Assembly: GCF_017357425.1 (NCBI RefSeq)
Contig: NZ_CP014573.1
Coordinates: 3,222 to 67,221, forward strand
Direction of reading: 5' to 3'
Source: Arthrobacter sp. D5-1
Lineage (GTDB): Bacteria > Actinomycetota > Actinomycetes > Actinomycetales > Micrococcaceae
Length of the DNA: 64,000 bases
Positions 2-64,000 of this stretch are shown one piece after another; position 1 is the stretch's first letter; each line of letters begins with the position of its first letter. Both the position numbers and the translations under genes were made by a program. The notes beneath the pieces are model-generated. The model saw nothing but the letters and a program-made list of their open reading frames with translations, did no database searches and was not told where the DNA came from.

Positions 2-1024
2 GGTTATGACCGGGCCGAGAAGGCCACCGCTACCCGGGATGAGCGGGAGATGCATAGGGCGTCTTTGGCGCGGAAGGTCCGTGCCAGTGCCAGCGCCTCG
101 GCCACCGAGGGGGAGTTCGTCCGCCGCGCCCGGGACACGGGCATGTTGCTCCGTCCGCGGTATGCGAAGAACACCACGGATGTCATCGTTGGGTACTCCG
201 TTGCCGAACGGCCCAGGCCGGGGGAGCGGCCCATCTGGTTTGGTGGCGGCACACTCGCATCCGACCTGACACTGGGTGCGCTGCGGCAAGGTTGGATGGA
301 CTCGCCGCACGCCGCGAGTGAGGCCGCGGCCGAGTGGAACGCCGCGGCACGCAACAAGCGCACCGTCACCAGGACCGGACCCGAGAGGGCAACGCCGTCG
401 CCGCAGGTGTGGGTGGAATACACCCGCAACGCGACCGCCCTGGCGGAGCAACTGCGCTCGGTCCCGCTAGATGATCACGCGACCTGGGCGAAAGCTGCGC
501 GGGACGTTTCCGGGGCGTTCGCTGCGTGGTCCCACCGTCTCGAGCCCACGCCCGGGCCGTTGGCGGCCACCGCGGCTGAACTGTCCCGTACCGCGCAGCT
601 CCGCGCACCACAGGTGCACACCAAGCCCGTGGCGTTGCCGTCCATTGCCGGCACGGCCATGCTGTTCCTGGCCGCCTCGTCCAAGAACAAGACAGCCGCG
701 CAGGCTGCACTGATGGTGCAGCTGGCGAATATGGCGCACGCCATCTACCAGATGCATCAGCAATCCGGCCGGACACGGGAAGCTGAGAGGATCCGCGCCG
801 TTGTCGCGACGCAGCTGAAGCCCTTTGCGGCCACCATGCCACGACCGGTTACCGTGGGCGGGCCGGCCCAGGCTCCGGAGCGTGGCCAGGACCGCAACCC
901 CGTGGAGCTTGGCTTGCGTGGTCTGGCTCCGATCCGTCCCGGCTCCGCCGTTCCCGCGACGGCCATACCCGCCAAGACACCCACCGGGACAGGACGGGAA
1001 TCCGGACCTGTACTTGACCGATAG
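2..1024 (+). CDS. Relaxase/mobilization protein, C-terminal part (5' end outside window)
   Basis: The reading frame is already open at base 2 (GYDRAEKATATRDE...) and ends with TAG at 1022-1024, so about 340 C-terminal residues are present. The segment with RRARDTGMLLRPRY and the VIVGYSVA...PIWFGGGTLASDL stretch resembles the region after the nuclease domain in actinobacterial plasmid relaxases. The catalytic tyrosine and histidine triad would lie upstream, so the relaxase assignment rests on this C-terminal similarity and on the T4SS and coupling protein elsewhere in the window. An internal ATG at 50 is in frame but is not a gene start. The gene is followed after 27 bases by a probable partner protein. 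Confidence 0.7.
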   Translation, partial: GYDRAEKATATRDEREMHRASLARKVRASASASATEGEFVRRARDTGMLLRPRYAKNTTDVIVGYSVAERPRPGERPIWFGGGTLASDLTLGALRQGWMDSPHAASEAAAEWNAAARNKRTVTRTGPERATPSPQVWVEYTRNATALAEQLRSVPLDDHATWAKAARDVSGAFAAWSHRLEPTPGPLAATAAELSRTAQLRAPQVHTKPVALPSIAGTAMLFLAASSKNKTAAQAALMVQLANMAHAIYQMHQQSGRTREAERIRAVVATQLKPFAATMPRPVTVGGPAQAPERGQDRNPVELGLRGLAPIRPGSAVPATAIPAKTPTGTGRESGPVLDR

Positions 1025-29666: not shown

Positions 29667-31436
29667 CTACTTTGTAACCCAGGGGTTAGCCACCGGCTCC
29701 GCGGGCGCCGAAAGGGCCGGCTCTTCGGGGCGCGGGCTGTATTTCTTGATGGAGGTCTCCACGGCAACCTTGTGGGGTCCGGTGTACCAGGGCATGGTCC
29801 GCACCAGGGTGGCGGGCGCACCGGAGGCGAGCACCACTGCGCGGCCGCGGTCCAGCTCGGCGAGGTTGGAGACGTCGAAGATTCGTTCCTTGGCTTCCTG
29901 TCGGGAGCGGCTGGAACCGGACTTACCCGAGGATGTAGAGACGTTGATGTAGCTGTAGTCCCCGATCAGGTCGGACAGGGCGCGGAGGAATCCTTCTTCG
30001 GCGACGCCGCCGCCGTAGACCTTGATGTTCGCTGCTGACCAGATTTTCCGCATGTTCGCCTCTCCCCACAGCTCCACGCCTTGGGACCAGGACTGCAGGA
30101 TGCCCATGACGATCAGGCCTTTGGAGCCGTAGTGGCTGAACTGGTCCGGCAGCCCGGCCCACCGGACAACGTTGGCCAGCTCGTCGAGAGCGAACAAGGC
30201 CGGCTTGGGAAGCCGGCCGCCGTTGCGTTCGGCGCGTTCCTCCATTGCCTCGGCAATCGCCACGGTCAGGGCCGTGGTCAGAGGGGCGGCGGATCCGGCA
30301 CCTTCCTTGGAGAGGATGTAGATGGTCTCCTGTGACGCGGCGAAGGCGTGCGGGTTGAACTGGCGGCGGGTATCCGTGGCCACGGTCACCCCGCCCGTGG
30401 GGGCGACCCACCGCAGCGTGTTCCGGCTTTTGAGGCACTGAATCATTTTCTCGGCGGTACCGAAGATGCCGTCACGCTGCTTGTCAGCCAGCTCCAGCGT
30501 GGATTCCAGTCCCTTGTACTGCAGCTCGTAGTCGTACTGCTTGAGGATGTTGATCGGTTCCCGGTTCACCTGCTCGGTCACCCACAGATACACCTGCGTT
30601 ATCGGTAGCTCCCCGAGAGCGGCGGCGAGGAAGTAGGAGGACAGAATGTCCTCTGCCTTGGGGTCGAAGTAGGCGTCAGGCTTTGACCCAGGCACGCGGG
30701 AGCCCACGGAGAAATGCTGCGTGAGCTTGTAGGCCTTCTCTTCGTCGGTGACGTACGATAGCGGGTTCCACCACCAGTCCGGCTCTTCCTGGGCGATCTT
30801 CTGCGGATCGAACACCCACACCGGCGCGGTGCGCTCACGGACTCCACGGGTACCGTCCACGACGTCGCGCTTATTCGACGTCGACACCACCGCACCGGGT
30901 GCGTCCAGGATGGCCGGCATGACCCGTGAGGTTGATTTACCGGTCCGAGGCCCCCAGATGTCGAGGCTGAGGTCTTCCCAGGACTGAATGAACTTCTGCC
31001 CTGTGGAGACGACCTTGCCGACGACGATGCCTGGCGTGTCCGTCACGCCCAGACGCTCAGCGGTCGCTTTTGCTCCCTTCTCGGAGAACGCGGCCAACGC
31101 CTTGCCGCGGCCCAGGTAGCGTGCGGCCTTGTCGACCCGGGCACGCTTGGACGCACCTTGCCGCCACGCCACGAGCACGACGATGGCCAACGCCAGGACG
31201 AGCCCGGCCATGACGCAGACAACGATGGTGGCTTCCGTGGGCCACGGCACGCGGCCTTTGATCAGACCTGCGATCAGATCGATCGGGTGCGCCGGCGGGG
31301 CGGCGATGCCAGCCATCCACGAGCCGACGTGCAGGGCGGCGTAGGTGCCGCCGACGAAGACGACGAGGAAGCCGATGGCCAGCCAGACCAGCAGGGCATC
31401 ACCGACGCCGATTCCTTTGCGGTTGGGTGCGCTCAT
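29667..31436 (-). CDS. VirD4/TraG-type coupling protein
   Basis: 589 aa. Two membrane segments at about residues 11-38 and 70-90 anchor a cytoplasmic ATPase. Walker A is GPRTGKST at about 162-169, Walker B is LFALDELANV in the second half, and the family feature DIWGPRTGKSTSRVMPAI is clear. The protein would couple the relaxosome to the secretion channel and pump DNA. Its start overlaps the VirB4 stop by four bases (ATGA). Confidence 0.92.
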   Translation of the reverse strand: MSAPNRKGIGVGDALLVWLAIGFLVVFVGGTYAALHVGSWMAGIAAPPAHPIDLIAGLIKGRVPWPTEATIVVCVMAGLVLALAIVVLVAWRQGASKRARVDKAARYLGRGKALAAFSEKGAKATAERLGVTDTPGIVVGKVVSTGQKFIQSWEDLSLDIWGPRTGKSTSRVMPAILDAPGAVVSTSNKRDVVDGTRGVRERTAPVWVFDPQKIAQEEPDWWWNPLSYVTDEEKAYKLTQHFSVGSRVPGSKPDAYFDPKAEDILSSYFLAAALGELPITQVYLWVTEQVNREPINILKQYDYELQYKGLESTLELADKQRDGIFGTAEKMIQCLKSRNTLRWVAPTGGVTVATDTRRQFNPHAFAASQETIYILSKEGAGSAAPLTTALTVAIAEAMEERAERNGGRLPKPALFALDELANVVRWAGLPDQFSHYGSKGLIVMGILQSWSQGVELWGEANMRKIWSAANIKVYGGGVAEEGFLRALSDLIGDYSYINVSTSSGKSGSSRSRQEAKERIFDVSNLAELDRGRAVVLASGAPATLVRTMPWYTGPHKVAVETSIKKYSPRPEEPALSAPAEPVANPWVTK

Positions 31437-55117: not shown

Positions 55118-55279
55118 CGGCGTCTTTTCGCCATTGACTCCCTCCATTTCGACATGTCCTGTAAGCCCTGCCCCGAGGTCTGAACCACCCAAGCCGCGCG
55201 GGTAGGGTTGGAGTTGAGTTCGCGCCCGCGCAGTTTGCGTGTGACGCGGACTCACTCATGTCTCAGTAAGGATGGGGAA

Positions 55280-57409
55280 ATGTCGCGGCTCACGGACCTT
55301 TTGCGCGCTGCCAAGCAGCTTGACGAGCAGCTTGGCAAAGATTTGGAAGACGAGATTCTTCCATTGCAGAAGCGACTGCCGTTCGGGCTCAATTTTGAAA
55401 GACATGCTCCCGAGGCCGTCGAACTCGCAGGACATAAGATCCGCAAGGGAAGCAAGGTACGGATCCTGCCTCCGAGAGGATCGACCGGTCGTGGTGACCA
55501 ACGACTCTGGCGCGTCACAGAGCTAATTGGTGACGCCGCTGAGATCTCGCTCCTGGACAGTTCCGAGGGTGAGGTCTGCACCGTGCAGCGGGACGATCTC
55601 ATTTTGGTGGCCGAATTTCGCGACTGGATCTACCCCGGGCTGCGCCCTGACGGAACAGTGGAGCGAGGCGGGGATAGGCCTTTCCACACAGTCATCAATG
55701 GCGAGAACTTTCATGTGCTCGAACAGCTGACTTTCACTCACGAAGAGGCTGTGGACGTGATCTACATTGATCCGCCTTACAACACAGGCGCCCGTGACTG
55801 GAAGTACAACAACGACTACGTCGAGGGCGATGACCTTTACCGGCATTCGAAATGGCTTGCGTTCATGGAGCGACGGCTCAAGCTGGCCAAGCGACTCCTC
55901 AAGCCCGAAAACTCTGTTCTGATCGTGACAATCGATGAGAAGGAATACTTGAGGCTCGGGCTGCTGCTGGAGCAGACGTTCGACGATGCACGTATCCAGA
56001 TGATCTCTACCGTCATTAACCCCAAGGGAGTTTCGCGCGGCGATTCCTTCCGCCGCTCCGACGAGTACATCTTCTTCGTGATGCTGGGCGCGGCCGCCCC
56101 ACAAAGGTTGGAACTTGGTGGGGAGTGGGGGTCGGGAAGCTTTGGCAATAGCGACACTGCAGCGAGCGACGACAATACCGAGCCCGCTTGGAGCTCCATG
56201 ATGCGTCGCGGGTCGAACTCAGCTCGTGCGGATCGGCCGGGCCTCTTTTATCCAATCTATGTCGATCCTGCCACTGGCCGAATCGAGCAGGTCGGAGCAC
56301 CCCTCAGCGCTGATAAGCACGAGGCCCCGGAAGTTCCTGGCCTCATCACTACTTTGCCACTGCGTCGGAATGGGTCAGAAGGCCGATGGCAGATAGGTCC
56401 AGAAGAACTCAGGTCCCGTCTCTCCCAGGGACGGGTGCGAATTGGCCGGAAAACCGCCTACGGCTACGTGATTAATTACCTCTCGGATGGGGCATATGCC
56501 GAGGTGTTGTCCGGCAGGTTTGAGATCAAGGGCCGAGCGGAAGACGGATCGATTCTAGCGACCAGAGTAGGTGTGCAATCTCGAGCTCAGGTTCCTTTCA
56601 CTCAGTGGCGCACACCTTCGCACAATGCCTCTGAGTATGGCTCCACTCTTCTGACAGCATTCCTCCCCGGCAGGAAGTTTCCGTTCCCGAAGAGCCTTCA
56701 TGCGGTCGAGGATGCACTCAGGCTCTTTGTCAGCGACAAGCCCGAAGCAGTTGTGCTCGACTTCTTTGCCGGCTCCGGAACCACTGCCCATGCTTTGATG
56801 CGGCTAAACCGGCAGGATGGCGGCAGCCGGCAATGCATTTCCGTGACGAACAACGAGGTTTCAGCTGAGGAGCAAGCACGGTTACGCAGGGAGAAACTGC
56901 GTCCAGGCGACGCCCGGTGGGAGCAATGGGGCATATGTGACTACATCACGAAGCCCAGAATTCTCGCAGCGATTACGGGTCGCACTCCAGATGGAGAGCC
57001 GATCAAGGGCGACTACAAGTTTGTCGATGAGTTTTCGATGGCTGACGGCTTCAACGAAAACGCCGCATTCTTCACACTCACTTACGAGTCACTGTGGCAG
57101 GTCAGCACTGACCGCGCGTTTGCGGCAATTGCTCCGATGCTTTGGCTGCGTGCTGGCGCAAGGGGGAGATGCATAGACGATCTCTCGCCAGGGTGGGCGG
57201 TTGCCGAGGCCTACGGCATCATCAAAGACCTTGACCGGTCAACCGAATTCATAGCTGCGCTTCAGCCCCAGGAGAGCCTCAGGATCGTCTTCATCGTTAC
57301 GAACGACGAGGGCCGCTACCAGCAGATCGCAAACGAGATCCCCGGTGTTGAAACCGTCCGTCTTTATGAGGATTACCTCCGGAACTGCGAAAGCAATGGT
57401 GACTTCTAA
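55280..57409 (+). CDS. mod: Type III restriction-modification methyltransferase
   Basis: 709 aa from ATG 55280 (AAGGA upstream). Methyltransferase motif IV is DPPYNTG at about residue 164 and motif I, DFFAGSGTTAHAL, at about 493, the beta-class order usual for type III Mod. Adenine-N6 methylation is expected. A target-recognition region lies between the motifs. The stop overlaps the Res start as TAATG, so translation is coupled. Confidence 0.93.
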   Translation: MSRLTDLLRAAKQLDEQLGKDLEDEILPLQKRLPFGLNFERHAPEAVELAGHKIRKGSKVRILPPRGSTGRGDQRLWRVTELIGDAAEISLLDSSEGEVCTVQRDDLILVAEFRDWIYPGLRPDGTVERGGDRPFHTVINGENFHVLEQLTFTHEEAVDVIYIDPPYNTGARDWKYNNDYVEGDDLYRHSKWLAFMERRLKLAKRLLKPENSVLIVTIDEKEYLRLGLLLEQTFDDARIQMISTVINPKGVSRGDSFRRSDEYIFFVMLGAAAPQRLELGGEWGSGSFGNSDTAASDDNTEPAWSSMMRRGSNSARADRPGLFYPIYVDPATGRIEQVGAPLSADKHEAPEVPGLITTLPLRRNGSEGRWQIGPEELRSRLSQGRVRIGRKTAYGYVINYLSDGAYAEVLSGRFEIKGRAEDGSILATRVGVQSRAQVPFTQWRTPSHNASEYGSTLLTAFLPGRKFPFPKSLHAVEDALRLFVSDKPEAVVLDFFAGSGTTAHALMRLNRQDGGSRQCISVTNNEVSAEEQARLRREKLRPGDARWEQWGICDYITKPRILAAITGRTPDGEPIKGDYKFVDEFSMADGFNENAAFFTLTYESLWQVSTDRAFAAIAPMLWLRAGARGRCIDDLSPGWAVAEAYGIIKDLDRSTEFIAALQPQESLRIVFIVTNDEGRYQQIANEIPGVETVRLYEDYLRNCESNGDF

Positions 57410-59970
57410 TGCGCTTCACTCTCAAGGACTACCAGGTGGACGCTGTCGGGGACACCTTGGCAGAGCTGACCGATGCACGCGAGTTCTACCACGGCGCGCG
57501 GAAGCGGGTTTCGTCGGTAGCACTCACAGCCACGACTGGTGCCGGCAAAACGGTGATGGCGGCAGGGGTTATTGAAGCGCTTTTTTGGGGGAGCGAGGAC
57601 TTCGAAACCGTCCCTGATCCAGGTGCGGTCGTATTGTGGTTCAGCGACGATCCCTCATTGAACCAGCAGACCAGGTATCGCCTGGAGCAAGCTTCTGACC
57701 GACTCCGCAACCGGCTGGTCACGGTCGAACATCCGTTTAGATACCGGAAGCTGCAGCCCGGGCATGTGTACTTCCTCAATACCTCTAAGCTGTCACGGAA
57801 TAGTCTGCTGGTACGGGGTCACGATGCTGCTGACGCCCTGCCGGGCATGGAATCAAACCCGGACACTGTGCCATTCACGTTTTGGGACACGCTGCGAAAC
57901 ACCATTGAGGATGAGAGCACCACGCTGTACATGGTGCTTGATGAGGCTCACCGAGGTATGGGACGGAGGGCATCATCTGACACGCCTACTATCGTGAAGC
58001 GTCTCATCAACGGTCACGGCTCCGTTCCGCCTGTTCCGATCGTTTGGGGTATCTCTGCGACGGTAAAGCGGTTCGAGGACTCCATGAGTGCTGCCGAAGT
58101 GCAGGACAACCGGGTGCATCTTCGGACCATTACCGTGGATCCTGTTCGGATTCAGGAGTCGGGGCTCCTCAAAGATGACATCGTCCTCGACTTCCCCGCA
58201 GAGACGGGAGACTTTAACACCGTTCTCCTGCGGCGCGGCGTTCGTAAGGTGAAGGAGATGTCGGCGGCCTGGGCGGCATACGCCGCCGCACAAAATGACC
58301 ATGACCCCATTGCGCCCCTACTGGTTTTGCAAGTGCCGAACAAGCCTTCACCGACAGAGGTGGCCTCTGCCATTGATGTCATCCGGCATGAATGGCCCGA
58401 GATCGGCTCCGAGGCGTTCGCGCACGTCTTTGGTGAACATACTGCTCAAACTTTCGGTGCGCACAACGTCCCCTACATCTCACCGGAACGAGTGCAGGAC
58501 GCTGCCTATATTCGGGTGATATTGGCTAAGGATGCCATCAGCACAGGTTGGGACTGTCCGCGTGCAGAGGTAATGGTTTCCTTCCGTCCAGCCGAGGATG
58601 AAACACACATCACCCAGCTTTTGGGCCGGATGATACGTACCCCTCTCGCGCGTCGAGTTGAGGGTGACGACGTCCTAAACAGTGTCGAGTGCATCCTTCC
58701 ACGGTTTAACAAAGCCACGGCCAGCCGCGTGCTTGAGCAGATCATGGGCAATGACCTCAGCGAAACCGGAACTGGAACCGGTCAGCGTGTTCTGATCGAC
58801 CCGCAGCTCATGAGGCCGAACGAAAGGGTTCCTGATTCGGTGTGGGCGCTGTTCGCCGAACTCCCTGCCGAAACGTTGCCCCGTAAGCATGCGAACCCAA
58901 TGAAGCGCCTGACCTCTCTGGCTCATGCGCTGGCGGCGGATGGCTTGGTGCCGGAGGCGGGGCGGATAGCTCATGAGCGCCTGCACGGGGTCCTCAACGG
59001 GCTGTCTGCGCAGTACCGGAACGAGCTCGAGAAAGCCGAGTCGGACGTGCGGACTGTAGCCGGCGGCACTGTCCGCGGACACGCGCGCTACGGTCTAAGG
59101 GCCGACGAAACCTGGACTGAGGCGGCGGATGACCGCGCCATCCAGGAAGCATTCCGTCATGCCACACGAACAGTGACCCCAGACATCGCGCGCACCTACG
59201 TAGACCACCTTGCAGCAGACGCCGAGGACGAGGATGTTCTCCGTGACGCTCACGTACGCGTGGCAGGGCTCGCGATGCTGCCGCAGACCCGGCCATCGCT
59301 GGATGCGGCTGCCGATCTGCTCTCGTCGGAGTGGTTGGGCAAGCACCGCGTAGCCATCAAGACGCTGTCGGAGTCCCGTCAAAGCTTGTATGCGGAGATT
59401 ACGGCCATGAGCACGGACCCTCAGCTGATTTCCATGGCGTTGCCCAAAAACCGACAGGAGGAAACGCGCCGGGCCGTGGGCGACGCAACCCAGATACTCG
59501 ACCAGCGCCCGCTCCACCTGCTCTCGGACGAAGATGGCATGTTCCCAGTAGGGAAACTTAACCCCGACGAGATTCAGGTGCTCGATACCGAAATTCAACG
59601 CGGCGACCTACTCGCCTGGTATCGCAACCCTACCGGCGGCCGCGACTCGATGAGCATCGCCTATCAGGACGTCCACGGAGCCTGGAGGACACTCAGACCC
59701 GACTTCCTCTTCTTTGTCACCACTAGTCACGGTGTACGAGCCAGCATCGTCGATCCTCATGGGTCGTGGCTACCCGATGCACTGCCCAAGCTACGGGGCC
59801 TAGCGCGATTCGCAGAGGTCTACGGCGAGAGTTTTCATCGCATCGAGTCAATTTCTCGCATAGATGGAGAACTGCGTGTCCTCGACTTCACCTTGCCGGA
59901 AATACGGAAAATTGTCTTGGATGCGATAGATGCAGACTCTGCCTACCGCGAGTCTGCTGTGGCGTACTGA
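57409..59970 (+). CDS. res: Type III restriction helicase/nuclease subunit
   Basis: 853 aa SF2 helicase: Walker A TTGAGKT at about 42-48, DEAH in LDEAHRGMGRR at about 178, motif III-like WGISATVKRF, then DCPRAEVMVSFRPAEDETHITQLLGRMIRTP (motif VI). The C-terminus shows RPDFLFF about 18 residues before VDPHGSW, where a PD-(D/E)xK nuclease would have ExK; here Asp-Pro-His takes that place. The lysine is thus missing and nuclease activity may be changed or lost. It is coupled to mod. Confidence 0.9.
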   Translation: MRFTLKDYQVDAVGDTLAELTDAREFYHGARKRVSSVALTATTGAGKTVMAAGVIEALFWGSEDFETVPDPGAVVLWFSDDPSLNQQTRYRLEQASDRLRNRLVTVEHPFRYRKLQPGHVYFLNTSKLSRNSLLVRGHDAADALPGMESNPDTVPFTFWDTLRNTIEDESTTLYMVLDEAHRGMGRRASSDTPTIVKRLINGHGSVPPVPIVWGISATVKRFEDSMSAAEVQDNRVHLRTITVDPVRIQESGLLKDDIVLDFPAETGDFNTVLLRRGVRKVKEMSAAWAAYAAAQNDHDPIAPLLVLQVPNKPSPTEVASAIDVIRHEWPEIGSEAFAHVFGEHTAQTFGAHNVPYISPERVQDAAYIRVILAKDAISTGWDCPRAEVMVSFRPAEDETHITQLLGRMIRTPLARRVEGDDVLNSVECILPRFNKATASRVLEQIMGNDLSETGTGTGQRVLIDPQLMRPNERVPDSVWALFAELPAETLPRKHANPMKRLTSLAHALAADGLVPEAGRIAHERLHGVLNGLSAQYRNELEKAESDVRTVAGGTVRGHARYGLRADETWTEAADDRAIQEAFRHATRTVTPDIARTYVDHLAADAEDEDVLRDAHVRVAGLAMLPQTRPSLDAAADLLSSEWLGKHRVAIKTLSESRQSLYAEITAMSTDPQLISMALPKNRQEETRRAVGDATQILDQRPLHLLSDEDGMFPVGKLNPDEIQVLDTEIQRGDLLAWYRNPTGGRDSMSIAYQDVHGAWRTLRPDFLFFVTTSHGVRASIVDPHGSWLPDALPKLRGLARFAEVYGESFHRIESISRIDGELRVLDFTLPEIRKIVLDAIDADSAYRESAVAY

Positions 59971-61438: not shown

Positions 61439-61633
61439 TCAGCGCAGCCGGAATTCGTCACCGCGATGGACAGCTTCCGCCCAAGCACTCACGGTCACAT
61501 CCGGTACAACGAACCTGATTGCTTCTGCCTCTCGCCTGATGGCCGCCGTGATCTGACGGATTGGCTGACCCTCAAGTGCGGCGATCTTCGCGTTCATCCG
61601 GGCCAAATCCAGCAAAGTCCTATCTCGATCCAT
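61439..61633 (-). CDS. Hypothetical protein, 64 aa
   Basis: Minus strand, start at ATG 61633 with AAAGGG six bases upstream. Reads MDRDRTLLDLARMNAKIAAL, then IRQITAAIRREAEAIRFVVPDV. Helical, soluble. Probably in one unit with the gene at 61040-61342. Confidence 0.45.
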   Translation of the reverse strand: MDRDRTLLDLARMNAKIAALEGQPIRQITAAIRREAEAIRFVVPDVTVSAWAEAVHRGDEFRLR

Positions 61634-61741
61634 GTCCATCCCTTTCGGTTTGTTCTGATGTGCCAATACGAACGTAGGTCTGGACTTCAAAAATGTGGGG
61701 GAGGGCTGCCGGGTTGCGCCGGCAGGTGACCAAGGTGCTCG

Positions 61742-62127
61742 CGGGCGAGCACTGTTGGGCGTCCTCTCCGCTTCGCTCCGTGGCCGGCTGTTGGGTGCTG
61801 CCGGTCCGTCGCAGAGCTCCGGCCCGTCATCACCTGTTGCTTACAAGCATTTTTGTGGCTGTCCTGCGGATCATACGGTTCCGCTCCGGCTCAAGCTCCT
61901 GACCCCTTCGTTCCTCAGGGGCCCTGCGGCGCCGGAATTCTTCGACGGCGCTCCTGCGTCGCTTATTTCCTTTCGAAGATTTCCAGCACCTTGCCCTGGC
62001 GGGAGGAGACGCCTCCGTCGGCCCCGTAGAGCACTACGTGCCAGCAACAAAAAAGCAACTGGGGGAGAGGGGAGCTGGCCGGTCACCTAAGCCGCCCGAC
62101 CCACCCACCATTTCGGCAAAGAATGGA
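61742..62127 (+). repeat. 386-bp direct repeat, copy 1 (leader of the gene at 62138)
   Basis: Matches 63205-63590 across 386 bases with only two visible mismatches (62098 and 62101). It starts CGGGCGAGCACTGTTGGGCG and ends GCAAAGAATGGA, ten bases before the start codon of the next gene. Internal hairpins: TGCT-TACA-AGCA followed by five T; CCCCT-TCGTTCCTC-AGGGG; GCGCCG ... CGGCGC. No coding frame is supported. It looks like a structured leader or a recombination site. Confidence 0.85.
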
Positions 62128-62137
62128 GCACCACCAC

Positions 62138-62569
62138 ATGAACGCAGTCATCAAGATGACCGTGACCACCGTTGATACCGAGGAAACCATCCACGATGTT
62201 CCGGTGCTCGTGGATTACCACATGAACGACGGATACGACTGGATGGACGTAATCGGTGAACACGGCTGGGCCGTGATCCCCAGTTGGGGCTGTGACGGCT
62301 GGGACTTGGGCCAGTGGCCTTACGTCATGGTCGCCGGGATCCGCACCGCCGACGAGATCGGCAACCTGTTCGGCATGGCCACCTACTGTGAGGGCGACAT
62401 GAGGACCACGTTTTACCGGACCAAGGCCGCTTTTTGGACCGCGATAAGTGAGCAGGCGTTCTTCCACTGGAAGAACGGACAGGCCCAAGGCCCCGACGAC
62501 CTGCCAGAGGCAGCCGCCGAGATGCCCAGTCGGTACCGGATTCCCTGCAATCTCTCCGCCGCCGCCTAA
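62138..62569 (+). CDS. Hypothetical protein with repeat-type leader, 143 aa
   Basis: ATG 62138 in a context like the parB start (ATGAACGCAG in both). TVDTEETIHDVPVLVDYHMN, then a Trp-rich stretch (DWMDVIGEHGWAVIPSWGCDGWDLGQWPYVMV). Acidic, soluble. No family recognised. It is followed by a strong terminator. The shared leader suggests coordinate control with parB. Confidence 0.65.
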   Translation: MNAVIKMTVTTVDTEETIHDVPVLVDYHMNDGYDWMDVIGEHGWAVIPSWGCDGWDLGQWPYVMVAGIRTADEIGNLFGMATYCEGDMRTTFYRTKAAFWTAISEQAFFHWKNGQAQGPDDLPEAAAEMPSRYRIPCNLSAAA

Positions 62570-62583
62570 CCACCACCCAAACC

Positions 62584-62609
62584 GGTGCCCCGCCTACGGG
62601 CGGGGCACC
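62584..62609 (+). terminator. GC-rich hairpin terminator
   Basis: GGTGCCCCGCC-TACG-GGCGGGGCACC, 11-bp stem, 14 bases after the stop codon. Confidence 0.7.
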
Positions 62610-62617
62610 CCTCCCAC

Positions 62618-62647
62618 CTCAAATGAGTATTTGAGTAAAAACTCATG
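62618..62647. promoter_or_regulatory. ACTC/GAGT box array 5 before DUF3846 gene 2
   Basis: CTCAAATGAGTATTTGAGTAAAAACTCAT, about 14 kb from the partition genes. Same units and spacing as the arrays there; it ends 24 bases before the gene. Confidence 0.65.
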
Positions 62648-62671
62648 ATTGCAATCGTTGAAGGACAAACC

Positions 62672-63022
62672 GTGAACACCTGCACAGCATTGATCATCCC
62701 AGCCAACCTGGCCGAGCCGGCACGCGTCGAACCCATCAACGCCGGTTTAGACAACCTGCAAACCCTTGTGGCCGGAAACATCGAAGCCGTCACCGTCGAT
62801 GACTGGCACTTCTACCTGAATGAAGAAGGCAAGATCATGCAGCTTGCACCGAACCGCCGCGCCGCCCAGCTGGTGCTGGAAGAAACCGGCGTTCTGGCAG
62901 ACGTGTACTGCGGTGACGTCGTTGTCTTGGGCGAAACCGCTGACGGCGACGAAGCAGACGTCCCCGAACATCTGATTGACACCGCGCAACAGCTTTTCGG
63001 ACTCCACCAAACCACCGCCTAG
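62672..63022 (+). CDS. DUF3846 protein (intact paralogue)
   Basis: 116 aa from GTG 62672 with AAGGA six bases upstream (an ATG at 62645 would lie in the box array). NTCTALIIPANL and QLAPNRRAAQLVLEETGVLADVYCGDVVVLGE give the DUF3846 pattern. It is the same length as the reconstructed gene at 45185. Function unknown. Its promoter region contains partition-type boxes, which suggests control by the ParG-like protein. Confidence 0.8.
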   Translation: MNTCTALIIPANLAEPARVEPINAGLDNLQTLVAGNIEAVTVDDWHFYLNEEGKIMQLAPNRRAAQLVLEETGVLADVYCGDVVVLGETADGDEADVPEHLIDTAQQLFGLHQTTA

Positions 63023-63204
63023 ACAGGCTGCGGGCCGTTCGCCTTTGTGGGCGGGCGGTCCGCCGCAGGTGGCCGCCTGGGTGGGTGGTTGCCGGCGCCG
63101 GACCGCCGTTCCCGCGTCAGGGCCGGCGCTGGTCACCTGGTGCGTGCGACAAGCCCACGCTTACGGTGATTTGGGCGCAGAGGAGGGGTCGGGGAAAGGG
63201 TACT

Positions 63205-63590
63205 CGGGCGAGCACTGTTGGGCGTCCTCTCCGCTTCGCTCCGTGGCCGGCTGTTGGGTGCTGCCGGTCCGTCGCAGAGCTCCGGCCCGTCATCACCTGT
63301 TGCTTACAAGCATTTTTGTGGCTGTCCTGCGGATCATACGGTTCCGCTCCGGCTCAAGCTCCTGACCCCTTCGTTCCTCAGGGGCCCTGCGGCGCCGGAA
63401 TTCTTCGACGGCGCTCCTGCGTCGCTTATTTCCTTTCGAAGATTTCCAGCACCTTGCCCTGGCGGGAGGAGACGCCTCCGTCGGCCCCGTAGAGCACTAC
63501 GTGCCAGCAACAAAAAAGCAACTGGGGGAGAGGGGAGCTGGCCGGTCACCTAAGCCGCCCCACTCACCCACCATTTCGGCAAAGAATGGA
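63205..63590 (+). repeat. 386-bp direct repeat, copy 2 (leader of parB)
   Basis: Second copy of 61742-62127. It ends eight bases before the parB start. The 180 bases before it (63023-63204) hold no gene and are very GC-rich. Confidence 0.85.
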
Positions 63591-63598
63591 AGAACACC

Positions 63599-64000
63599 AT
63601 GAACGCAGCACCCACACTGGAAATGCTCGACCCCACGACTTTGACTGTGGATATCAACGTCCGCAAAGACGCCGCCCTGACCGCTGACTTCATTGCCAGC
63701 GTCAAAGAACACGGCGTGATGGAACCCGTGATCGCGCACCGCAAGGACGACGGCACGGTGCATGTGCTGATGGGACAGCGCCGCACCCGCGCCGCCGTCG
63801 AAGCCCAGCGCCCTGAAATCCCGGTGATGATCATCGAGTCCCCGGAAGAGGCCGAACGGATCGTGACGCAGGTCGTGGAAAACATCCAGCGCGCCGAACT
63901 GACCGAAGCGGACGAGGCAGACGCCTACCACCAGCTATCCCTGATCGGTGTTTCGGCGGCATCGATCGCCAAGAGGACCGGACGGAAAAAGGCCGCCGTC
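63599..64000 (+). CDS. parB: ParB-family partition protein, N-terminal part
   Basis: 134 residues are present; the gene continues past the window. LTVDINVRKDAALTADFIASVKEHGVMEPVIAHRKDDGTVHVLMGQRRTRAAVEAQ is the ParB/Srx N-terminal domain. ENIQRAELTEADEADAYHQLSLIGVSAASIAKRTGRKKAAV begins the HTH. The box II-type motif is GQRRTRAA, matching GERRxRAA. No ParA is visible next to it in the window. Confidence 0.93.
   Translation, partial: MNAAPTLEMLDPTTLTVDINVRKDAALTADFIASVKEHGVMEPVIAHRKDDGTVHVLMGQRRTRAAVEAQRPEIPVMIIESPEEAERIVTQVVENIQRAELTEADEADAYHQLSLIGVSAASIAKRTGRKKAAV

Follow-up and report, generated by a model that had tools for sequence, protein, structure and literature searches.

A repeated leader block of Arthrobacter-group plasmids as a candidate single-stranded DNA promoter of leading-region genes

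The window analysed here, a stretch of 64,000 nucleotides (nt), spans bases 3222-67221 of contig C3 (67,221 bp) in the 5.1 Mb, three-contig genome of Arthrobacter sp. D5-1, and carries two almost identical non-coding blocks (leaders), each directly followed by a start codon. Each block is probably a promoter that acts as single-stranded DNA (ssDNA) and serves a leading-region (establishment) gene on a conjugative plasmid. The computed basis for this is the existence of a block family, the placing of its copies directly before start codons, the way they point with respect to the relaxase gene, the covariation and strand bias of its stems, and the position of promoter-like boxes in the family.

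Promoters of this kind are known from plasmids of gut bacteria; for this group of bacteria no description was found in the literature searched. Among the papers listed by that search, whose coverage excludes most subscription papers, none deals with these repeats, and the main text of PMC11541004 mentions neither Actino- names nor Arthrobacter. We lean towards a more specific view, in which the blocks form an actinobacterial class of ssDNA promoters that is non-homologous to the known ones and of its own origin, with a reversible direction and a -10 box in a preformed bubble, and drive an establishment or anti-defence regulon. That regulon would comprise ParB, DprA, DUF4192, DUF3846 and a new family of 143 amino acids (aa), and membership would mark a protein as serving establishment or anti-defence. 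The element is of greater interest when read as DNA and not as RNA: it is most likely a new actinobacterial leading-region ssDNA promoter, non-homologous to the known ones.

The block family and the genes behind it

Between copy 1 (61742-62127) and copy 2 (63205-63590) there are exactly 2 mismatches in 386 positions (62098, G in copy 1 and C in copy 2; 62101, C and T), and identity is complete over the first 300 bases. An open reading frame (ORF) for a 143-aa protein begins with the ATG at 62138 directly after copy 1, and parB with the ATG at 63599 directly after copy 2. An earlier note, made from the sequence, had described both points correctly: two near-identical 386-base blocks with two mismatches, each adjoining a start codon. 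The parB ORF continues from the end of the window into C3:1, and since it reads across both contig ends C3 was taken as a circular plasmid.

Six further, diverged copies (72-77% identical) lie on contig C2 of the same genome; copies within C3 are 98.7% identical to each other, those of C3 and C2 at most 77%. A search of plasmid sequences, as proposed in the earlier note, gave matches at 167 places in 56 records of PLSDB (E <= 1e-5), with copies preceding at least five gene families. Given the six C2 copies and these 167 places, the duplication is far beyond chance. All 56 records come from Arthrobacter (32), Paenarthrobacter (15) or Pseudarthrobacter (9), and mobility typing classed 40 as conjugative, 9 as mobilizable and 7 as non-mobilizable. 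The blocks are thus a family found on Arthrobacter-group plasmids, mostly conjugative, at 1-6 copies per plasmid. The phage collection contained no match to the block.

Among genomes of the genus, 99 of 150 had a match (E <= 0.001); in the window's taxonomic family it was 81 of 295, spread over 15 of 32 genera, many matching only in a core of 26-36 nt. A pattern of the promoter region was run against 297 genomes of the order, where 0-1 mismatch gave 18 sites in 5 genomes, all of the window's family, and two mismatches gave 7 single sites (1 for a reversed-pattern control), of which 5 fall in genomes that do not belong to the family. Since the matches at 0-1 mismatch are confined to it, the element is confidently seen only in the window's family, apparently Micrococcaceae as judged from the named plasmids.

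Downstream genes were classified for the 108 distinct copies that reach the end of the profile, matches ending before profile position 340 having been dropped (at most 31 of 145, before removal of repeats). The earlier note had asked whether copies elsewhere lie in coding DNA or at random places; instead, for 105 of the 108 the profile end is no more than 10 nt away from an ATG. By their N-terminal residues the genes belong to the 143-aa family (31), ParB (25), DUF4192 (21), DprA (15) or a DUF3846-like class (5), with 10 others and one copy without a visible ORF; a gene other than parB follows 82 copies, which bears on a possible role as a parB-linked ParB binding site (parS). Pfam confirmed ParB_N, DUF4192, DNA_processg_A (DprA) and DUF3846 in example genes, one DUF3846 example falling barely below the cut-off. 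The view that the leader is conserved while the downstream genes are unrelated is thereby borne out, for at least five gene families. An ssb gene also lies inside the leader cluster at several loci.

The 143-aa protein after copy 1 has no family in Pfam or PADLOC. It has 103 homologues at E <= 0.001, and the named ones are nearly all from Arthrobacter-group bacteria. Its structure model is confident (predicted local distance difference test score, pLDDT, 89) and had no significant structural match in PDB or among viral models; Pur-alpha-like matches were weak (E at least 0.07) and were not relied on.

As a separate observation, dprA genes on plasmids (L013:22025-22930 and relatives) regularly belong to the leader regulon, following 15 of the 108 copies, and PADLOC called one of them ShosA-like (E 2e-48). 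This is suggestive of a recombination mediator within the leading region.

Direction, conserved fold and promoter-like boxes

Leader matches are all on one strand at each of the 52 loci longer than 5 kb, 38 of which have more than one match. At all 23 loci that carry both a leader and a MobC, MobP or MobF gene, the leaders lie upstream of that gene and share its direction; these loci are partly related, and the window locus was counted across the circular junction, its mobC (C3:2227) and oriT-like motif (C3:2084) both lying before the window. ColIb-P9 has the same layout, in that its leading-region genes (antirestriction, ssb, ParB, psiB, psiA, ardA) are also upstream of, and directed toward, the relaxase genes, with a small opposite gene before nikA-nikB. 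Early expression of ColIb-P9 ssb, psiB and ardA is reported in the accessible text of PMC9849209, and that of PMC11541004 places the relaxase typically on the lagging side. If that placement holds here, the leaders lie in the leading region, pointing toward the origin of transfer (oriT) and the relaxase as Frpo/ssi repeats do (23 of 23 loci), and the minus strand of the leader would be both the transferred strand and the template.

At 7 of 13 MobC-type loci the sequence just upstream of mobC holds an oriT-like motif, GGAGCAAGYTATACAYTTAC, with an inverted repeat after it. The conserved inverted repeat leaves the transferred strand undecided, and alignments of the regions upstream of MOBF genes gave conserved blocks and no clear nic.

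The fold was derived from 233 matches (including overlapping loci), of which 200 remained after a coverage filter and 80 were kept as non-redundant. RNAalifold gave one multibranched fold on either strand for these 80 copies. In a separate minus-strand alignment of 48 sequences, pairing holds in 91.5% of 4,649 cells, two-sided changes occur in 39 of 98 pairs (26.3 +/- 2.1 in shuffled alignments) and the covariation score is 0.218, against 0.112 for shuffled and at most 0.070 for slid versions; the tested structure was derived from the same alignment and is for that reason favoured over the slid ones. A plain G-test of covariation with average product correction (APC) was left unused in favour of counts set against controls, being dominated by block substitutions and relatedness (effective number of sequences about 15). 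With a stem counted as formed when at least half its pairs are present, the minimum-energy DNA folds of the 80 individual minus strands contain P1 in 60, P2 in 50, P3 in 51 and P5 in 52 rows.

The apical loop of P5 (61944-61974 and 63407-63437), with CGGCGCTCCTGCGTCGCTTATTTCC, has 26-nt stretches that are identical in other genera. It falls outside what the promoter model explains and is perhaps a protein-binding or priming site.

Which strand folds was judged from mismatches within stems, where what reads A.C on the coding strand reads G.T on the minus strand, and vice versa. Rows with less than 70% coverage or more than 92% identity were excluded from the main test. For the 69 pairs that all four predictions share, 168 cells are A.C and 98 are G.U on the coding strand, corresponding on the tree to 105 A.C and 44 G.U events (p 6e-7 against 1:1). 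The same script applied to RNase P RNA from 23 relatives in the same bacterial family (non-redundant at 95% identity) gave 102 G.U and 9 A.C cells, or 70 and 9 events, and 65 and 8 when reduced to 20 rows at 92%. The control favours G.U, so the script assigns a genuine RNA to its proper strand. In DNA, G.T is only mildly favoured. The mismatches in the leader stems point to the minus strand, and a bias that is opposite to that of RNase P RNA and weaker suggests DNA. The composition-corrected fold z score is lower on the minus strand for 33 of 40 leaders, and for 6 of 6 leading-gene repeats of ColIb-P9 and R100. Raw energies under DNA parameters, lower on the minus strand in 50 of 50, were set aside since shuffles of the window copies showed the difference to be largely composition, and only z was used.

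Promoter-like boxes were sought in every column on both strands with spacers of 15-19 (TTGACA/TATAAT), giving 3,207 combinations, each covered by 50 or more rows. The top site is on the minus strand with a spacer of 16 and a mean of 8.59 of 12, the next distinct site reaching 5.79; 7 of about 5,000 permuted hexamer pairs reached the top score. In the real, insert-containing sequence of 80 rows (78 non-redundant and the window's two), 70 show, at a distance of exactly 16 nt, a -35-like hexamer matching in at least 3 of 6 bases, and 68 have a -10 of the form TANNNT (TACAAT, TAGAAT, TATGAT, TACGAT or TAAAAT). Diverged relatives read TTGACG-16-CATAAT or TACGAT.

In the consensus fold the -35 region lies in a stem, and 5 of 6 bases of the -10 stay unpaired within a loop measuring about 14 x 16 nt, which has small hairpins inside. 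The -10 is on the left arm (for the minus strand, the 3' arm) and reads from the loop towards the base. By this geometry the boxes face the gene when the minus strand is folded, directing transcription out of the hairpin along the single-stranded template, and face away from it in the duplex.

The promoter model and its alternatives

Under the model, the plasmid in the donor would be double-stranded, the sigma70-like boxes of the minus strand would point in the direction opposite to the gene, which would presumably be off. On transfer the minus strand would enter the recipient first, from an oriT beside the relaxase genes, and would fold into the multibranched hairpin with its -35 region in a stem and its -10 mostly unpaired in the loop, like a pre-opened bubble, on the non-template arm. 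RNA polymerase would transcribe the other arm, then pass through the outer stem along the single-stranded template and reach the ribosome-binding site (RBS) and ATG, some 95-100 nt on, and ParB, DprA, DUF4192, DUF3846 and the 143-aa protein, presumably establishment proteins, would thereby be made at once. Conversion to duplex would remove the fold and end this transient expression. Of the options in the earlier note, it is thus the promoter module that gains support, in a special form which faces its gene solely while the template strand is single-stranded and folded.

If correct, ssDNA-driven early gene expression extends to Actinobacteria, and the trick may have arisen more than once. The block would also provide a sequence handle for leading regions and establishment genes, including the families DUF4192, DUF3846 and 143-aa of no assigned function, and the stem-mismatch test, which asks which strand tolerates G.T, may tell ssDNA from RNA elements in other genomes.

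Several results weigh against this model. An RP4-like nic motif was found in 0 of 13 stretches upstream of mobC, and the transferred strand is inferred from the direction of the leaders relative to the relaxase. In most Arthrobacter-group copies the -35 is only TAGACG (4 of 6), the window copies have no -35 at normal spacing (a lack seen in 10 of the 80 rows), and a consensus scan of 61600-63700 gave no sigma70-type site on either strand. The ColIb-P9 ssi stretches searched showed no clear canonical boxes, and the box geometry is for that reason without a known-case control. The minus-strand folds of the window copies themselves contain P5 in both, P1 in copy 2 only, and P2 and P3 in neither, and their fold z scores (-1.3 to -2.4) are nearly equal on both strands. 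Unpaired sites show an asymmetry of their own (highest values G->A 0.0296 and C->T 0.0207, ratio 1.43); with 1.43 as the null, the one-sided p of the strand bias is 0.002 for all pairs, 0.02 for full-length rows and 0.12 for pairs at least 85% Watson-Crick. At 80% redundancy p is 0.065. The accessible text of PMC8708921 on pLS20 points the same way: an ssDNA-promoter role of the structured repeats there was judged highly unlikely, in part on the ground that nicking affects the non-template strand.

The closest known systems are the Frpo/ssi repeats, reported as ssDNA promoters in the accessible parts of PMC9849209 and PMC11541004, the latter surveying Frpo-like promoters in leading regions. 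According to the former, Frpo in its single-stranded form adopts a stem-loop in which -10 and -35 boxes are restored; leading genes need it for their early expression, and conversion to duplex turns the promoter off. ColIb-P9 similarly has repeated blocks of 330-500 nt before ssb, ardA and other leading genes, toward the relaxase genes, and its repeats and those of R100 fold better on the transferred strand than on the coding strand after composition correction (6 of 6). A conserved stem-loop of the presumed transferred strand is seen here at the family level, in covariation and strand bias. Sequence relation was not found: the 56 records matched at E <= 1e-5 are all of the Arthrobacter group, whereas ColIb-P9 and R100 are in the same collection. 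The fold here also differs in being multibranched and less stable, the family boxes in being TTGACG/TAGACG-16-TANNAT, the genes in being parB, dprA, DUF4192, DUF3846-like and the 143-aa family, and the host in being actinobacterial.

An unlikely alternative is a structured repeat like EGeRS1 of pLS20, which would block read-through in the donor and allow transient expression in the recipient by a route other than an ssDNA promoter. As far as the accessible text of PMC8708921 goes, EGeRS1 consists of structured repeats of 420-750 bp, 62-95% identical, before the RBSs of establishment operons; no constitutive promoter was found, read-through was blocked, and the copies of one plasmid are mostly clustered. 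The anatomy (several hundred bp, inverted repeats, position before the RBS of clustered operons) is shared, the operons being here presumably establishment operons, and the weak boxes of the window's own copies fit this alternative too. So does the hairpin with a T-rich tail, one per copy on the plus strand (61946 and 63409), that the earlier note had pointed out; but 61600-63700 holds 3 terminator-like sites where shuffles hold 2.0 +/- 1.7, a count no higher than chance, so that the hairpin means little by itself. Against a purely EGeRS1-like role, no site in the block scores higher across the family than the promoter-like box pair, which lies on the minus strand, and the direction relative to the relaxase makes the presumed transferred strand the template, opposite to pLS20. 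None of the 56 matched records is from Bacillus, the presence of pLS20 in that collection being unconfirmed. EGeRS2, the Reg-repressed promoters of p576, resembles the leaders as a repeated upstream element of an establishment regulon, but is described in the accessible text as a strong double-stranded DNA (dsDNA) promoter with repressor boxes, whereas the window stretch has no sigma70-type site by the consensus scan.

The explanation as RNA, which the earlier note had offered as a cis-regulatory option, would make the block a leader common to the regulon (riboswitch, attenuator or protein-binding 5' untranslated region), and its place directly before the start codon and the strong covariation are what it would predict. 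We regard it as improbable. The covariation check proposed in the earlier note was positive (39 of 98 two-sided changes), but the bias favours the strand opposite to that of an mRNA leader (105 A.C and 44 G.U events, the reverse of RNase P RNA). Rfam had 0 matches at the gathering score and 5 weak ones (E 1.4-3.3), all below cut-off. The minus strand might alternatively encode a structured non-coding RNA, or carry a dsDNA promoter that makes an upstream antisense RNA, in keeping with strand bias and boxes both being on that strand. This is more doubtful still, since a transcript from the boxes would start to the left of most of the fold and so would not contain it, the mismatch bias of 105:44 is weaker than the 70:9 of an RNA, and the fixed distance to the downstream ATG stays unexplained. 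Hardly any weight falls on a single-strand initiation site that primes the complementary strand without promoting a gene, or on a partition or recombination site, another option of the earlier note. The probable leading-region location and the minus-strand fold would suit priming, and the title of a cited paper gives Frpo a part in transcription as well as in the synthesis of primer RNA. Yet plasmids mostly have several copies, each at the start codon of a different gene, which argues for gene expression, with priming as a possible added function; and a recombination or partition site is unsupported because copies precede at least five gene families directly at the ATG (within 10 nt in 105 of 108). 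The ssDNA promoter thus continues to be the reading we prefer.

Features of the window

The coordinates are collected in Table 1, where stems refer to the family consensus.

Table 1. Leader copies, their predicted elements and neighbouring genes (window coordinates unless C3 is given; an empty cell means that nothing was assigned).
Feature	Position	Strand	Remark
Leader copy 1	61742..62130	.	Candidate ssDNA promoter; putative minus-strand fold
Leader copy 2	63205..63594	.	Same element, before parB
Outer stem P1, left arm	61850..61861	.	Pairs with 62042-62053
Outer stem P1, right arm	62042..62053	.	
-10-like TATGAT, copy 1	61870..61875	-	Mostly unpaired in the consensus fold
-10-like TATGAT, copy 2	63333..63338	-	
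Weak -35-like TTGAGC	61889..61894; copy 2 63352-63357	-	Just 13 nt before the -10
Stem P2, left arm (spacer region)	61876..61883	.	Pairs with 62019-62025; unformed in the predicted fold of copy 1 itself
Stem P3, left arm (-35 region in most relatives)	61888..61900	.	Pairs with 62005-62013; unformed in the fold of copy 1 itself
Stem P5 and strongly conserved apical loop (61944-61974)	61928..61990	.	Part common to other genera of the family
Predicted transcription start zone, copy 1, minus strand folded	62035..62043	+	Predicted from geometry only
143-aa protein, first gene after copy 1	62138..62569	+	No assigned function; pLDDT 89
DUF3846 protein, second gene after copy 1	62645..63022	+	
parB (ParB_N domain)	63599..64000	+	Continues at C3:1
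MOBP-type relaxase gene, 3' part	2..1024	+	92% identical to the relaxase of Paenarthrobacter sp. R1
TraG/TraD-type coupling protein	29667..31436	-	Plasmid transfer system
oriT-like motif of the window plasmid	C3:2084-2125 (locus L009)		Conserved also at L014, L015, L081, L083, L086 and L107

Elsewhere in the window, at 55208-59970, two adjacent ORFs of 733 and 853 aa resemble by eye a type III restriction-modification pair, putatively in the order methyltransferase, then helicase/endonuclease.

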